Source of the DNA: Calothrix sp. PCC 7716
Lineage (GTDB): Bacteria; Cyanobacteriota; Cyanobacteriia; Cyanobacteriales; Nostocaceae
Assembly (NCBI RefSeq): GCF_019977735.1
Contig: NZ_AP025018.1
Location: 3,844,001-3,908,000, forward strand
Direction: 5' to 3'
Length of the DNA stretch: 64,000 nucleotides
Part shown: piece by piece, positions 48,253 to 53,422 of the stretch
Layout: every line of letters begins with the position of its first letter
How positions within the stretch are numbered: the stretch's first letter is position 1
Notes under the pieces: generated by a model
Told to the model about the DNA's origin: nothing
The model's database searches: none
The model's input: the letters and a program-made list of their open reading frames with translations, nothing else
Position numbers and translations under genes: made by a program

Positions 48253-48280
48253 TTGACAATTGATTGAAATTTGTTTAAAT
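48253..48280 (+). promoter_or_regulatory. Candidate thrS promoter TTGACA-16-TTAAAT
   Basis: Consensus -35 TTGACA (48253-48258) and -10-like TTAAAT (48275-48280). Transcription would start near 48287, about 32 bases before leader 1. It is the best match between the HEAT gene and the leaders. Confidence 0.55.
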
Positions 48281-48313
48281 GGGATTATAGGCTCAAATAA
48301 TTTCTCATCTTAA

Positions 48314-48328
48314 TACTCATGATTATCA
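48314..48328. promoter_or_regulatory. Zur-box-like half-palindrome over leader 1 start
   Basis: TACTCAT-G-ATTATCA: the right half ATTATCA equals the half-site of the cyanobacterial Zur consensus TGATAAT-N-ATTATCA, the left half matches 4 of 7. It overlaps the leader 1 ATG, about 27 bases past the predicted start site, where a bound repressor would block elongation or initiation. Weak evidence. Confidence 0.3.
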
Positions 48329-48378
48329 GCTTAGTCACAACCATAACTACTCGAACTACCAGCCACGGAGGGTTGTGA
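48319..48378 (+). CDS. Threonine-rich leader peptide 1 of thrS
   Basis: A 19-codon frame, MIISLVTTITTRTTSHGGL, ending TGA 48376-48378. Six of nine residues from position 7 to 15 are Thr (codons between 48337 and 48360), with Ile and Arg between. The last codons (GGA GGG TTG) form strand 1 of the antiterminator. Translation itself is the regulatory act: stalling at Thr codons when Thr-tRNA is scarce would leave strand 1 free. No strong ribosome binding site is visible. Confidence 0.8.
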   Translation: MIISLVTTITTRTTSHGGL

Positions 48379-48442
48379 AACGTTGCGCGTGCGTATCTAA
48401 GCAATGATTCAACCCTCCAGGCGCCATCCCAGAGGGTTTTTT
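48367..48442 (+). promoter_or_regulatory. Attenuator 1: antiterminator/terminator switch
   Basis: Strand 1 GGAGGGTT (48367-48374) pairs with strand 2 AACCCTCC (48411-48418); extra pairing of CGTTGC (48381-48386) with GCAATG (48401-48406) extends the hairpin. Strand 2 alternatively pairs with strand 3 GAGGGTT (48432-48438), which runs into six T. The two hairpins exclude each other. A ribosome at the leader stop covers strand 1 and favours termination; one stalled on Thr codons permits the antiterminator. Confidence 0.82.
48411..48442 (+). terminator. Intrinsic terminator 1 of the thrS leader
   Basis: AACCCTC / GAGGGTT stem with a 14-base loop containing GGCGCC, followed by a T6 tract (48437-48442). 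Confidence 0.82.
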
Positions 48443-48455
48443 AGTAACTTTCCTT

Positions 48456-48489
48456 CTTGTGAAACAGGCAAGGATGCCTGTTCCACAAG
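48456..48489. repeat. Palindromic repeat between the two leaders
   Basis: CTTGTGAAACAGGCAAGGAT and GCCTGTTCCACAAG form an imperfect hairpin of the same family as 11783, 49987 and 57104. It separates the two attenuator units. Confidence 0.75.
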
Positions 48490-48517
48490 AGATGTACTTA
48501 AATTTCTTATTCCCAAT

Positions 48518-48589
48518 ATGAAGAATTTCAAAACCATTATAACTACTACCACTACTACCACTATCACACCTGGAGGGGTTGTGACGTAA
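48518..48589 (+). CDS. Threonine-rich leader peptide 2 of thrS
   Basis: A 23-codon frame ending TAA 48587-48589. It reads MKNFKTII, then seven consecutive Thr codons (48542-48562), then ITPGGVVT; ten of 23 residues are Thr, with ACT/ACC codons only in the run. The frame is open upstream to ATG 48404, but that would start inside terminator 1; ATG 48518 gives the compact leader. The end (GGA GGG GTT) is strand 1 of attenuator 2, as in leader 1. Confidence 0.82.
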   Translation: MKNFKTIITTTTTTTITPGGVVT

Positions 48590-48643
48590 TTAACTGCGTT
48601 CATCACCGAACCCCTCCAGGCGCCAAGCTTAGAGGGGTTTTTT
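48572..48643 (+). promoter_or_regulatory. Attenuator 2: antiterminator/terminator switch
   Basis: Strand 1 GGAGGGGTT (48572-48580) pairs perfectly with strand 2 AACCCCTCC (48609-48617); GTGACG and CGT-TCA-TCAC inside extend it. Strand 2 also pairs with strand 3 GAGGGGTT (48632-48639), which continues into T6. Same logic and layout as attenuator 1, with near-identical motifs (TTGTGA after strand 1, CCAGGCGCCA after strand 2), so one unit is a duplicate of the other. Confidence 0.85.
48609..48643 (+). terminator. Intrinsic terminator 2 of the thrS leader
   Basis: Eight-base stem AACCCCTC / GAGGGGTT, loop with GGCGCC and AAGCTT, then T6 (48638-48643), 40 bases before the thrS start. Confidence 0.87.
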
Positions 48644-48682
48644 AATTTCAAAATTTTTTGAACTTGCACAAGGAGTAAACCA

Positions 48683-49915
48683 ATGTACGACCATAGAGAA
48701 ATCGCAAGAGCAATGGATTTGTTTCATTTTGAGGAACATAGTCCCGGTATGATTTTTTGGCATCCGATGGGCTGGCGCCTATATCGCATAATTGAAGATT
48801 ATATGCGCGGAGTGTATGAATCATATGGATTTCTAGAAGTGCGCTCACCTATAGCACTGAGTCGCGCGCTCTGGGAAAAATCAGGTCATTGGGAAAAATT
48901 TCGCGAAGGCATCTTCGTAGTCGGTAGCTTAGATAAAGACAAAGAAGACTTAAACCCAGATTATGCATTAAAGCCAATGTCATGCCCTGCACATGTGGGT
49001 ATCTATAAATCTGCAAGGCGAAGTTATCGGGAAATGCCTATCAGGTTAATGGAGTTTGGCATGGTTCACCGCAACGAAGCATCAGGAACATTATCCGGTT
49101 GTATGCGGTTACGTCAGTTTGTTCAAGACGATGCTCATATCTTTTGTCAGGAAGCAGACATTCAAAACGAGATTCGTAACTTTTTGAACATGGTAAGTGA
49201 AGTCTACAAAGCATTTGGATATGAGAAGTTTTCTATTAAAATTTCTCTACGACCAGAAAAACGCCTTGGTTCCGATGCTCTTTGGGATAAAGCAGAAGGC
49301 GCCCTTATAGATGCATGTGAAGCACTTAAATACGCATACGAACTATTACCAGGTGAAGGCGCCTTCTATGGGCCCAAAATAGAAGTCAGCTTAGAAGACC
49401 ACCTTGGACGCTCATGGCAGTGCGGTACAATTCAAGTAGACTTTAACTTGCCACAAATATTTGACCTTGCTTTTGTAAACAGTGAGGGAGCATTTGAACA
49501 ACCTGTAATGTTGCATCAAGCAGTTCTAGGTTCAATCGAACGCTGGATAGGAATACTCTTAGAAAGTCATGGAGCTTTACCTTTATGGTTGGCGCCAGTT
49601 CAAGTTGCAGTCGCAGCAATATCCGATAAATCTGCTCAATGGGCTTTATATGTAGCATCTAAATTAAGGCGTAACGGTGTTAGAGTCGAACTAGCAAAGC
49701 GCGACGCAACAATTTCTAAAAAGATTCGTGAACTATTTGAACGCAAAATTCCTTTAATTGCTGTTGTTGGAGAACAAGAAGCAGCCAAAGGTACAGTAAA
49801 TCTTAGGCGCCTGGGTGTTTCTGGTCAACAAGAGATTGAATTATTAGACTTGGAGCAGGAATTAAGAAACCAGGTTTCTTCATCACTAAGCACGACAATC
49901 TTGAACGTAAACTAA
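48683..49915 (+). CDS. thrS: Threonyl-tRNA synthetase lacking TGS and editing domains
   Basis: Class II synthetase charging tRNA-Thr, 410 residues against about 640 for full ThrRS: the frame begins directly at the catalytic domain (MYDHREIARAMDLFHFEEHSPG). Zinc ligands Cys101 (MSCPAH), His152 (DDAHIF) and His278 (MLHQAV) and motif 2 (HRNEASG, LRQF) are intact; the anticodon-binding domain (about 305-400) is present. AGGAG (48671-48675) precedes ATG 48683. Such editing-less copies are known as second, stress-type ThrRS in cyanobacteria (Anabaena T2, low-zinc induced). Preceded by two Thr-codon attenuators. The last codons lie in a repeat. Confidence 0.93.
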   Translation: MYDHREIARAMDLFHFEEHSPGMIFWHPMGWRLYRIIEDYMRGVYESYGFLEVRSPIALSRALWEKSGHWEKFREGIFVVGSLDKDKEDLNPDYALKPMSCPAHVGIYKSARRSYREMPIRLMEFGMVHRNEASGTLSGCMRLRQFVQDDAHIFCQEADIQNEIRNFLNMVSEVYKAFGYEKFSIKISLRPEKRLGSDALWDKAEGALIDACEALKYAYELLPGEGAFYGPKIEVSLEDHLGRSWQCGTIQVDFNLPQIFDLAFVNSEGAFEQPVMLHQAVLGSIERWIGILLESHGALPLWLAPVQVAVAAISDKSAQWALYVASKLRRNGVRVELAKRDATISKKIRELFERKIPLIAVVGEQEAAKGTVNLRRLGVSGQQEIELLDLEQELRNQVSSSLSTTILNVN

Positions 49916-50043: not shown

Positions 50044-51981
50044 TTAGATGAAGTCGAAGTCATTAGCAGTGATGTTTGTTACACCAGCAACAGTAATGCT
50101 ATTTCCTGCACCAAACGCTGTAGAGGTGATAATCGAGTTGCCAGCATTGACATTGATAGATAAATTGTTAAAGCCAATTCCAAAGCTGACCAAATCAATT
50201 ATGTCAGCTCCATCTCTGAAGCCATTGATAGTATCGACACCGAAACCACTAGAAAAGATTAGTCTGTCGGCTCCAGCACCACCATTCAGGCTGTCATTAC
50301 CAGCACGACCAATAAGAATATCCTCTCCGTCTCCACCAATCAGACTATCTGCACCTGCACCGCCATCTATGTAATCATTCCCAGCTTGACCGGTCAAAGT
50401 GTCATTGCCTTGATTGCCGAAGATGTTATCATTACCGCCACTTCCTGTGATATTGTTATTAGCTGATGTTCCTACATAAAGACCTATTGCATTAGTTGCT
50501 GTTGCACCTGTGAAATCGGCATTGAGCAGATTAACATTGGTAAAGTTGGCATTAGACACATTGGTATTGGTAAAATTAGCAGCCGCCGCTGAACCATCCA
50601 CAAAGTTTGCGCCATTTAGGTTTGCACCCGTCAGATTGGCGCCATCCAGGTCAGCTTTCTCAGCAAAAGCACCACTTAGGTTAGCCCCGGTCAAAATTGC
50701 ATTATTAAGGCTAGCATTGCTAAGGTTGGCATTGTTATCAAGTTGAACATTGCTTAAATCGGCGCCATTGAGTTCGGCAAAGCTTAAAGTTGCTCCGCTC
50801 ATATCCGCATTATCAAATTGAGCGTTGTTGAGCTTGGCACTTGTGAGGTCTGCTGCGGTCAAATTGCTTCCAACTAGGAGAGTCGAGCCATTACCCTCAG
50901 TTAATTTTAGATTCGCACCACTTAAATTCGCTCCAGTTAAATTAGTACCGCGAATCTTAGTATTCTCCAGAAAAGCGTTATTGAGTTCAACACCACCGAT
51001 GAGATTTGCTCCATCCAAGGAACCCAAGCCAAGGTTAACTCCGGTCATCTTTGCGCCAATAGCTGTGGCATTGGTCAAATCTCCACCTGCTAAATTAGCC
51101 CCTGAAAGGTCTGTTCGATAAGAGGTACCGTTTGGTGAAACAAAGGTATTGAGGTTTGCGCCAACCAATTCCAGGTCTTCTGCAATCAAGTTCTGCATTT
51201 TGGCGCCTCGCAAATCGGCTCCGTTTAGGTTGGTATCGGGCAAAACGGCGCCTGTTAAATCGGTCTGAGTGGCAGAACCATTAGGATTGACAAAGGCACT
51301 AAAATTAGAGCCTGACATATTTACATCTTCTGCCCTGAACCCAGCCATGTCGGCGCCTTTGAAACTTAAACCTGCTGCCTGAGCTTGTTGAGTTGGGTTA
51401 GTATCTGTAATCGCAACTCCACTTAAATCGGCTAGATCAAAGGTAGAGTTTTGTAAGGTAGCATCTGTGAAATTGGTTAAGGTAAAGTTTGCACCCGTTG
51501 CATTGGTATTAACAAACCGAATGCTCTCAATATCGGCACTTTGAAAATTAGCTCTTGTTACGTTGGCGCCTTCAAAGTCTGCCCCTTTAAGCTTGGCACT
51601 TATTAATTGTGCATCAGTTAGATTAGCGTTTCTGAGATTGTTAACAGTCCCATCTGGTTCGCCACTTAGATCGGCTTCGTTCAAAATTGCATTGGTCAAG
51701 TTGGCACCACTAAGGTTAACACCATTAAAGACAGCCTTAGAAAGATTAGCGTTGGTAAAGTTAGCACCAGTAGCAATCACATCGCTTAAAGTTGCCTCTT
51801 GAAAATCGGTGCTAACCAAAGTAGTGTTAATCAGTTTGGTGGGGATATCATCTGCTGTCCCAGCAACTCCATCTGGTCCTGGAGCAGACCTTAAAATTGA
51901 TTTGAAAAAATTAGCGTTAGTTAAATTCTGACCGCTAAAGTCTTGTCCTTCTAAAATTTGGTTGCTGAAATTTTGTGACAT
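50044..51981 (-). CDS. Pentapeptide-repeat protein with C-terminal RTX calcium-binding repeats
   Basis: 645 residues. About 500 residues of pentapeptide repeats (A(N/D)LxxA pattern: LSGANLTNAILNEADLSG, LTGANLSGANLKL, LDGANLTGANLNGANF) form a right-handed beta-helix. Near 525-590 come RTX nonapeptides (GSGGNDNIFGNQGNDTLTGQ, GGAGADSLIGGDGEDILIG) and a typical RTX C-terminal segment (RLIFSSGFGVDTINGFRDGA), which usually acts in calcium-dependent folding and type I secretion. No signal peptide. Probably surface or secreted. Long leader from a promoter near 52361. Confidence 0.92.
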   Translation of the reverse strand: MSQNFSNQILEGQDFSGQNLTNANFFKSILRSAPGPDGVAGTADDIPTKLINTTLVSTDFQEATLSDVIATGANFTNANLSKAVFNGVNLSGANLTNAILNEADLSGEPDGTVNNLRNANLTDAQLISAKLKGADFEGANVTRANFQSADIESIRFVNTNATGANFTLTNFTDATLQNSTFDLADLSGVAITDTNPTQQAQAAGLSFKGADMAGFRAEDVNMSGSNFSAFVNPNGSATQTDLTGAVLPDTNLNGADLRGAKMQNLIAEDLELVGANLNTFVSPNGTSYRTDLSGANLAGGDLTNATAIGAKMTGVNLGLGSLDGANLIGGVELNNAFLENTKIRGTNLTGANLSGANLKLTEGNGSTLLVGSNLTAADLTSAKLNNAQFDNADMSGATLSFAELNGADLSNVQLDNNANLSNASLNNAILTGANLSGAFAEKADLDGANLTGANLNGANFVDGSAAAANFTNTNVSNANFTNVNLLNADFTGATATNAIGLYVGTSANNNITGSGGNDNIFGNQGNDTLTGQAGNDYIDGGAGADSLIGGDGEDILIGRAGNDSLNGGAGADRLIFSSGFGVDTINGFRDGADIIDLVSFGIGFNNLSINVNAGNSIITSTAFGAGNSITVAGVTNITANDFDFI

Positions 51982-52753: not shown

Positions 52754-53422
52754 TTAAGCTACTAAAATGTCGCTAGCGGTTATAGTTGGCATACCTTGTA
52801 GTAATGCAAACTCACCACCAGTACCAAATCCATTCGCGGTGCCATTTGTGTCGTAGAATAATTTACCGCTACCTGTACTATAGGTGATAAAAGCAGTACT
52901 GTTATCGGCCGCAGCATCATTTGCAACAATGCTAAACTCACCAGCAGCAATAATGCCACCATTTTGAGGGGTTAAAGCACTGAAGGTTGATTGGTACAAT
53001 ACAATACGGTCTGTACCTGCGGCAAAATCAGTGATGGTGTCAGTACCCAAAGTTGATTGATTAAATACATTCTCTGAAACAAAGAGAAATCTGTCTACAT
53101 TTGCTCCACCAGTCAGGGTATCATTACCATCTTCTCCAATTAGAGTATCACTGCCAGCACCACCGTTCAGACTATCTTTACCATCTTCTCCATCGAGAAA
53201 GTCATTACCAGCACCACCTAGTAGGACATCATTACCATCTTCTCCATCAATGATGTCATCACCAACTCCACCATCGTGAAAGTCATTACCTGCTTCACCA
53301 TTGAGAAAGTCATTTCCAGCACCACCATTAAGAGTATCGTTACCTCCTTCTCCATCAATGAAATCGCTAGCGAATGTACCATTAAGGACATCATTGCCAC
53401 TTGTTCCAAAAATTACTGCCAT
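52754..53422 (-). CDS. RTX (hemolysin-type calcium-binding) repeat protein
   Basis: 222 residues from ATG 53422, preceded by AGGAG. Residues 5-110 are nearly uniform RTX nonapeptides (GTSGNDVLNG, GEGGNDTLNGGAGNDFLNGE, GEDGNDVLLGGAGNDFLDGE), which bind calcium in a parallel beta-roll. The C-terminal half (RFLFVSENVFNQSTLGTDTI, TDFAAGTDRIVL, KLFYDTNGTANGFGTGGEFA) is a common cyanobacterial RTX tail, often a type I secretion signal region. Secreted, function unknown. Upstream promoter block shared with the neighbouring RTX gene. Confidence 0.92.
   Translation of the reverse strand: MAVIFGTSGNDVLNGTFASDFIDGEGGNDTLNGGAGNDFLNGEAGNDFHDGGVGDDIIDGEDGNDVLLGGAGNDFLDGEDGKDSLNGGAGSDTLIGEDGNDTLTGGANVDRFLFVSENVFNQSTLGTDTITDFAAGTDRIVLYQSTFSALTPQNGGIIAAGEFSIVANDAAADNSTAFITYSTGSGKLFYDTNGTANGFGTGGEFALLQGMPTITASDILVA

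Follow-up and report, generated by a model that had tools for sequence, protein, structure and literature searches.

The stretch of DNA analysed here, which we will call the window, comprises 64,000 nucleotides (nt) of the cyanobacterium Calothrix sp. PCC 7716 (contig NZ_AP025018.1, positions 3,844,001 to 3,908,000 of the forward strand). Within it, two short reading frames rich in threonine (Thr) codons, each overlapping a set of alternative RNA pairings and followed by an intrinsic terminator, precede the third threonyl-tRNA synthetase (ThrRS) gene of this genome, labelled T3. The arrangement had been picked out by an earlier reading of the letters alone (in the following, the sequence-only reading), and we studied it in the T3 loci found in overlapping samples of genomes from the family, the order and the class, the union of which contains 34 genomes with T3. 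Counts of leaders refer to 33 of 34 loci, those with at least 490 nt of upstream sequence; L117, where the contig ends 67 nt upstream, was dropped. The features of the window are listed below, strands 1 to 4 being the RNA segments that may pair with one another in each unit.

48253-48280, forward strand: promoter-like site, consisting of TTGACA (48253-48258), 16 nt and TTAAAT (48275-48280).
48319-48378, forward strand: leader open reading frame (ORF) 1, MIISLVTTITTRTTSHGGL and stop; 6 Thr in 19 codons, found in 33/33 loci.
48360-48364, forward strand: unit 1 strand 1 (CAGCC), with its partner GGTTG at 48371-48375.
48367-48375, forward strand: unit 1 strand 2 (GGAGGGTTG), overlapping the end of leader 1; 9 base pairs (bp) with strand 3.
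48410-48418, forward strand: unit 1 strand 3 (CAACCCTCC), common to antiterminator and terminator.
48432-48442, forward strand: unit 1 strand 4 with its T run (GAGGGTTTTTT); the intrinsic terminator has a 7-bp stem, a 14-nt loop and six T.
48518-48589, forward strand: leader ORF 2, MKNFKTIITTTTTTTITPGGVVT and stop; 10 Thr in 23 codons, present in 31/33 loci.
48542-48562, forward strand: seven consecutive Thr codons in leader 2, by sequence.
48565-48570, forward strand: unit 2 strand 1 (CACACC), whose partner, according to RNAalifold, is the GG..TTGTG segment of strand 2.
48569-48583, forward strand: unit 2 strand 2 (CCTGGAGGGGTTGTG); 12 bp with strand 3 by sequence.
48608-48620, forward strand: unit 2 strand 3 (GAACCCCTCCAGG), by sequence and duplex scan.
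48632-48643, forward strand: unit 2 strand 4 with its T run (GAGGGGTTTTTT); the intrinsic terminator has a 9-bp stem, a 15-nt loop and six T.
48683-49915, forward strand: T3, 410 amino acids (aa), with catalytic and anticodon-binding domains only.

The layout of leader, antiterminator and terminator is real and goes beyond chance. Both leaders have the coordinates and the composition that the sequence-only reading had given them, the run of seven Thr codons included. That reading had also claimed that the end of each leader pairs with a downstream strand, which doubles as an arm of a terminator followed by six T. In unit 1 this pairing extends over 9 bp (GGAGGGTTG with CAACCCTCC), and in unit 2 it is longer than had been proposed, namely 12 bp by sequence (CCTGGAGGGGTT at 48569-48580 with AACCCCTCCAGG at 48609-48620); both terminator-arm strands do pair with the G-rich strand as well, and the terminators end at 48442 and 48643. 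Strands 2, 3 and 4 are thus as described, while an additional hairpin of strands 1 and 2 (1:2), which would protect strand 2 in the second unit, had been overlooked. Including this hairpin, unit 2 would correspond to the classical four-strand layout.

To imitate the positions of the ribosome, the bases that it covers were left out in folding. With strand 1 covered and strand 4 not yet made, the antiterminator (2:3) forms in 33/33 sequences of unit 1 and 30/30 of unit 2, and the same numbers (33/33 and 30/30) form the terminator (3:4) when strand 2 is covered. Both alternative folds are found in 33/33 and 30/30 real units versus 28/660 and 28/600 sequences with a shuffled downstream part, and folding gave at least five core pairs in every unit tested. 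The 1:2 pairing sequesters strand 2 in 29/33 sequences of unit 1, where the registers differ, and in 30/30 of unit 2. A scan for duplexes revealed a few oddities, i.e. a non-canonical best pairing in unit 1 of L119 and L127 and a core pairing of 5 bp in unit 2 of L134, and it yielded no useful pairing in L128. Unit 2 of L128 was left out of alignment A1 and of the folding, lineage and shuffle tests, and L116 and L089 are not represented in unit 2; three sequences with a variant core (L113 for unit 1, L123 and L084 for unit 2) were left out of the z-score sets mentioned below.

Leader 1 occurs in 33/33 loci and leader 2 in 31/33, having been lost in L116 and being degenerate in L089. With both folds in 63/63 units, this is the conservation of Thr codons and pairings among relatives that the sequence-only reading had suggested looking for. 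On average, Thr accounts for 6.5 of 19.9 codons in unit 1 (32 leaders, L115 left out) and for 8.3 of 19.4 in unit 2 (31 leaders). The end of leader 1 varies, as the frame stops just before strand 2 in L115 and overruns the usual stop position in L124. Counted backwards from strand 2, codons -4, -7 and -9 of unit 1 specify Thr in 30, 31 and 30 of 33 loci; in unit 2 this is true of codons -5 and -6 in 30 and 29 of 31, of codons -5 to -9 in 27-30 of 31, and of codon -4 in 25/31 (compared with the 30/33 of unit 1). The codons used for Thr are mixed (unit 1: ACC 87, ACT 79, ACA 31, ACG 10; unit 2: ACC 104, ACT 84, ACA 29, ACG 41); 27 of the 41 ACG codons of unit 2 are the last codon of the leader, which is ACG in 27/31. 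In strand 2, by contrast, the wobble bases of GGA and GGG are mostly kept, in 29 and 30 of 32 sequences of unit 1 (L115 being left out of this codon count) and in 25 and 26 of 31 of unit 2, when counted from the stop codon. Because the third bases of the Thr codons vary and those of GGA and GGG hardly do, the constraint on the run appears to act at the level of the peptide and that on strand 2 at the level of the RNA; it is apparently the amino acid that matters in the Thr run.

The same data bear on the idea that the leaders sense stalled ribosomes in general, e.g. under translation inhibitors or slow elongation, and that a run of Thr codons is just one way of being slow. A regulatory upstream ORF (uORF) of E. 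coli is reported to sense several antibiotics that target the ribosome (PMC12121999), and the leaders of T3 do vary in length and in their residues other than Thr. The positions kept through synonymous changes are nevertheless those of Thr, the gene behind them belongs to the ThrRS family, and strong matches to the units are found with no other gene. We therefore regard a general stalling sensor as unlikely.

Units 1 and 2 form separate lineages: in 63/63 units, the nearest unit outside the own genus is the one at the same position, 1 to 1 and 2 to 2. Consequently, the two units either were already joined before these lineages separated or have spread together, and the tandem arrangement is, by this sequence evidence, old. 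It is also here that the possibility of one functional unit next to a decaying duplicate has to be weighed. Unit 2 is missing from L116, a remnant in L089 and interrupted by an insertion in L128, as would befit decay; yet leader, antiterminator and terminator are kept in both units of the other 30/33 loci, which belong to several families, and each unit evolves as a lineage of its own (63/63). A single functional unit beside a decaying one is thus decidedly unlikely. The insertion in L128 (genome G422) separates strand 2 of unit 2 from strand 3; it has inverted ends (GGGAGCATCCCA/TGGGATGCACCC), is accompanied by a 9-bp direct repeat (GATAGTTGC) and resembles, by eye, a small mobile element of the non-autonomous kind. 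A hairpin, likewise by eye, persists at a distance from leader 2.

The gene behind the leaders had been called a cyanobacterial thrS. Its protein indeed belongs to the thrS family (463.5 bits with the NCBIfam equivalog TIGR00418, cut-off 383.65), but it is not the housekeeping enzyme: it is an apparently dispensable third thrS without the editing domain. PF00587 and PF03129 were recognised in T3, and the editing domain PF07973 (tRNA_SAD) was not found. Residues 1-397 can be aligned with a solved ThrRS chain of 410 residues, and in this alignment the Cys and two His that serve as zinc ligands in E. coli ThrRS are, by eye, retained. The two other ThrRS genes of the genome (L002 and L003) encode proteins of 627 and 617 aa with 42% and 38% identity to T3, both with PF07973; upstream of these full-length genes, no Thr-rich leader was seen by eye, and R1, a covariance model built on unit 2, gave no match at E ≤ 1.

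Short relatives of T3 are scattered. At E ≤ 1e-140 they were found in 18/217 genomes of the family and 11/388 of the order, the own genome included in each. In the class sample, matches at E ≤ 1e-120 were obtained in 39/388 genomes: 11 (again with the own) have short forms of at least 67% identity, and 28 have longer forms of about 47-52%. At least one other ThrRS, its open frame longer than 500 aa, is present in every one of the 32/34 T3 genomes checked (G548 and G787 were left out). Among the protein matches listed (120 of 7934), most are 390-455 aa long, with few fragments, and the organism names given are cyanobacterial, e.g. Scytonema hofmannii PCC 7110, Nostoc sp. T09, Moorena and Acaryochloris marina. 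The best 80 of 591 confirmed stretches from a search of genome contigs have 46-55% identity and stem mainly from Proteobacteria, with some from Prochlorococcus and unassigned metagenome-assembled genomes; among these 80, none comes near the at least 67% identity of the short forms. Two further copies of T3 are carried by plasmids pREC1 and pREC2 of Acaryochloris marina MBIC10699, which are predicted to be conjugative, and both have both leaders (91 and 94 bits with the unit-2 model). As flanking ORFs within about 1.5 kb are rarely in common (the 33 loci share them in just 13 flank comparisons, each within one genus or family), the leaders and the gene look like a conserved block.

This linkage is equally evident when the search starts from the leaders. 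A signature pattern of unit 2, allowing at most one mismatch, gave 7 matches in 388 genomes, 7/7 upstream of T3, and none with the reversed control, though it misses 4/11 T3 genomes of that sample, the window's genome included. A separate pattern search of the own genome found unit 1 alone, its pattern being unable to match unit 2 because of an extra G there. The covariance model yielded 21 matches of at least 48 bits in 208 genomes, all going with T3 or a broken copy: 16 lie directly before an intact T3, four before a broken one, and one (G549) near the end of a contig, with T3 at the end of another contig. Fifteen of the 21 are in the training alignment, so that G549, G422, G562, G544, G444 and G442 are independent of it. 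Broken T3 genes behind leaders include those of G442 (L146/L166, cut near codon 117), G562 (L154, cut after residue 178), G544 (L158, internal deletion) and G444 (L160, stops and frameshifts), and T3 of L093 (G180) has a premature TAG after 325 codons. Given these broken copies, T3 appears to be dispensable. In G441, T3 is preceded by unit 1 alone, and G438 (L173), from the same genus, has an orphan unit 1 and a HEAT-repeat neighbour as in the window, with neither unit 2 nor T3 seen in the downstream stretch. Weaker matches to the model (about 23-36 bits) coincide in some cases with the position of unit 1. Nine such loci were viewed (L168-L176), of which L169 and L173 are unit 1; in the remaining seven, no Thr leader was found before a terminator, L175 having an ambiguous frame with Thr. 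The idea that switches of this kind also precede other genes was rejected, given that the signature matches and the 21 strong model matches all lead to T3.

Conserved leaders, alternative folds and linkage to T3 together argue for the reading of the paired leaders as Thr attenuators, which the sequence-only reading had put forward. With a probability of roughly 0.85, we consider the two units in series to be ribosome-mediated transcription attenuators that would keep T3 off until Thr-charged tRNA is short. If this tRNA is ample, the ribosome would reach the stop codon and cover strand 2, 3:4 would form and the polymerase would stop; without a ribosome, 1:2 would hold strand 2, and 3:4 would still form. 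If instead the ribosome stalls at the last of the conserved Thr codons, some 12 nt upstream of strand 2, it is predicted to cover strand 1 and to leave strand 2 free, so that 2:3 could form before strand 4 is made and the polymerase would read on. The footprint of the ribosome extends some 12 nt past the codon being translated (PMC4833913), and because of this coverage a ribosome waiting at codon -4 would hide strand 1 and spare strand 2. Since the polymerase has to get past both units, their two probabilities of readthrough should multiply; basal expression would then be very low and the response steeper. Sensing of Thr-tRNA by stalled ribosomes, kinetic antitermination and multiplicative readthrough are what we infer from these structures.

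Several results weigh against this reading. A clear Shine-Dalgarno site is absent, by eye, from the leaders of the window, and a simple terminator scan listed neither terminator, its loops being limited to 3-8 nt and those of the two units measuring 14 and 15. When the RNA is fully transcribed and strand 2 is free, the minimum free energy (MFE) structure keeps 2:3 in merely 14/33 and 6/30 sequences, for which reason antitermination would have to be kinetic, i.e. settled during transcription. The 1:2 hairpins barely beat shuffled sequences (mean z -0.52 in unit 1 and -0.75 in unit 2), and the MFE fold of strand 1 in unit 1 of the window, -5.5 kcal/mol, is no better than shuffles (z 0.12). In unit 2, two measures of covariation for 1:2 are reached by 251 and 500/500 shuffles, and two of the five for the terminator by 62 and 258/500. 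The 2:3 core hardly varies, its percentage of paired positions being reached by 254/500 (unit 2) and 44/500 (unit 1) shuffles, and related sequences can in any case exceed shuffles without any structure.

Other parts of the covariation analysis, in which identical rows were merged (28 of 30 counted in unit 2), are more favourable. RNAalifold recovers the terminator of unit 2 together with a 1:2 hairpin, in which strand 2 pairs with the codons that directly follow the Thr run; in unit 1 it recovers the 2:3 core alone, with no double changes, and strand 2 is nearly invariant there over the 33 sequences. For the terminator of unit 2, three of five measures lie above all 500 shuffles. Of the cells of its 1:2 hairpin, 95.8% are paired (28 distinct rows), as against 3.5-56% after slides by 1-3 columns; three measures are reached by 13-26/500 shuffles, and a G-C to A-U exchange occurs in 3 distinct rows, all from the window's genus and including the window. 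The compensatory changes that the sequence-only reading had asked for are therefore essentially absent from the 2:3 core and visible in the unit-2 terminator and, as one event, in the unit-2 1:2 hairpin. With so little variation in the core, covariation speaks neither for nor against 2:3.

A TTGACA promoter ahead of both units had likewise been claimed. TTGACA does lie at 48253, and TTGAC[AT] is found upstream of leader 1 in 31/33 loci (the exceptions being L125 and L128) and, as it is missing from the leader regions of both plasmid copies, in 31/35 overall. The best -10-like hexamer is weak, however (TTAAAT, a 4/6 match after the 16-nt spacer), and a simple promoter scan of this region did not list the pair.

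Instead of leader peptides, a T-box, a riboswitch or autogenous binding might control the gene; in E. coli, ThrRS binds to the leader of its own thrS. No Rfam family, the Thr operon leader and T-box among them, reached its gathering score in the window. Between 48150 and 48700 there were five matches at E ≤ 5, each well short of its cut-off; two of them, His_leader (17.8 of 49 bits) and Yfr10 (20.3 of 43), lie over unit 2. The models of the T-box and of the Thr operon leader (accession RF00506) are absent even from these. The T-box and the Rfam leader families were accordingly rejected, as none scored above its cut-off. Two or three T-boxes do precede thrZ in bacilli (PMC2494555), but the passages of the same paper count T-boxes in 0/13 cyanobacterial genomes, and neither a T-box nor a riboswitch nor autogenous binding would explain conserved Thr reading frames. 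Control of this kind is highly improbable here.

Ribosome-mediated attenuators as such are classical, being known from the thr, his, trp, leu and pheST operons of enterobacteria. The units before T3 resemble them in the leader peptide with cognate codons, the four strands, the alternative terminator and the T run, and differ in having no Rfam leader match above cut-off, in being arranged in series and in belonging to a spare synthetase of cyanobacteria. An auxiliary tryptophanyl-tRNA synthetase of Streptomyces is reportedly, by the title of the report, under ribosome-mediated attenuation, which would make it another spare synthetase controlled in this way, with another amino acid, in another phylum and reportedly with a single leader. 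T-boxes, in turn, bind uncharged tRNA directly. Tandem T-boxes of thrZ and thrS in Bacillota are serial antitermination switches before a ThrRS gene, expected to be pseudo-cooperative (PMC2494555, PMC12452182), whereas the predicted sensor of the T3 units is the translating ribosome. By logic, these multiple T-boxes of bacilli (PMC2494555) and, going by its title, the tryptophanyl-tRNA synthetase attenuator come closest. The leaders of hisZ/hisS* in bacilli (PMC2965389) also place a leader peptide before a duplicated gene of a synthetase family outside Proteobacteria and Actinobacteria, but these are His leaders of Firmicutes, and the passages describe no tandem. The uORFC-8-2 motif before cysS (PMC8632094) is, similarly, a predicted uORF attenuator with cognate codons before a synthetase gene; it has two Cys codons, belongs to Rhodobacterales and is mentioned, in the passage concerned, without a second unit. 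According to a paper of 2016, reliable data on attenuation in cyanobacteria do not exist, and the main text of PMC2965389 has no word beginning with 'cyanobacteri'. Among the papers listed by literature searches we recognised no description of the present system; an earlier report in subscription papers, e.g. a comparative survey of attenuation from 2010 cited in PMC4833913, is possible. What would be new is the serial Thr pair before an editing-less cyanobacterial ThrRS and not attenuation by leader peptides.

The nearest parallel to the gene itself is thrS2 (T2) of Anabaena sp. PCC 7120, a spare cyanobacterial ThrRS with poor editing, which takes over under zinc limitation and can be edited in trans by T1 (PMC4787780). 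T2 retains an impaired editing domain and is controlled by Zur, in contrast to T3, which has no such domain and exists alongside two full-length ThrRS. By analogy, takeover and editing in trans could hold for T3 as well, and T3 is probably error-prone. As a speculative role, T3 would be a locked emergency ThrRS that stands in when the main enzyme fails (through an inhibitor or loss of zinc) or when Thr is short, the double lock limiting exposure to an enzyme unable by itself to edit Ser-tRNAThr.

The Anabaena precedent (PMC4787780) also raises the question of whether Zur controls T3 at initiation, with the leaders in a secondary role. A match to the Zur box consensus with 3 mismatches (TACTCATGATTATCA, 48314-48328) overlaps the start codon of leader 1, and on pREC1 (L145, 3201-4003) T3 is divergent from cysS with a 1-mismatch box between them and folE downstream. 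Genes of the cysS/folE type have been tied to zinc shortage elsewhere (PMC2770081). Across the 33 loci, however, boxes with up to 4 mismatches occur in 9/33 versus 195/660 shuffles and are thus no better than chance; the match at the window's position, with 3-4 mismatches, is confined to the window's genus, and the second full-length ThrRS of the genome (L002) has a 2-mismatch box. We thus reject Zur control of T3 as very unlikely, and because no Zur box is conserved, T3 would sense uncharged tRNA and not a metal. The box of L002 (825-839) lies inside the longest ORF (ATG 814) and just before the next in-frame ATG (856), an arrangement at the gene start that resembles the Zur-controlled thrS2 of Anabaena. 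A Fur-family gene was seen near the copy of T3 on pREC2.

On balance, we think it likely that the ancient serial Thr attenuators and the editing-less spare ThrRS travel together as a cassette. Leader-peptide attenuation would then be documented for the first time in this phylum, and the serial pair would amount to a natural AND gate. If so, this gate would release an error-prone synthetase in a genuine Thr-tRNA emergency only, and ribosome-mediated attenuation, which needs coupling of transcription and translation, would work in cyanobacteria. Two serial copies kept for one gene would, in addition, make the value of serial switches testable, and an editing-less spare synthetase behind two locks would be a way in which cells could trade accuracy for survival.

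Some minor features of the region may be added. GGCGCC, a palindrome interspersed much as HIP1 is in other cyanobacteria, has 110 copies in 1-64000 against 4 expected from shuffles, with one in each terminator loop (48420 and 48619). Between the units, at 48463-48490, lies a palindromic repeat (CAGGCA..TGCCTG) with a single copy in the window; L113 also has it, preceded by extra sequence. Downstream of T3, on the other strand, follow a gene for a pentapeptide-repeat protein with RTX calcium-binding repeats (50044-51981) and a second ORF that is repeat-rich by eye (52754-53422).

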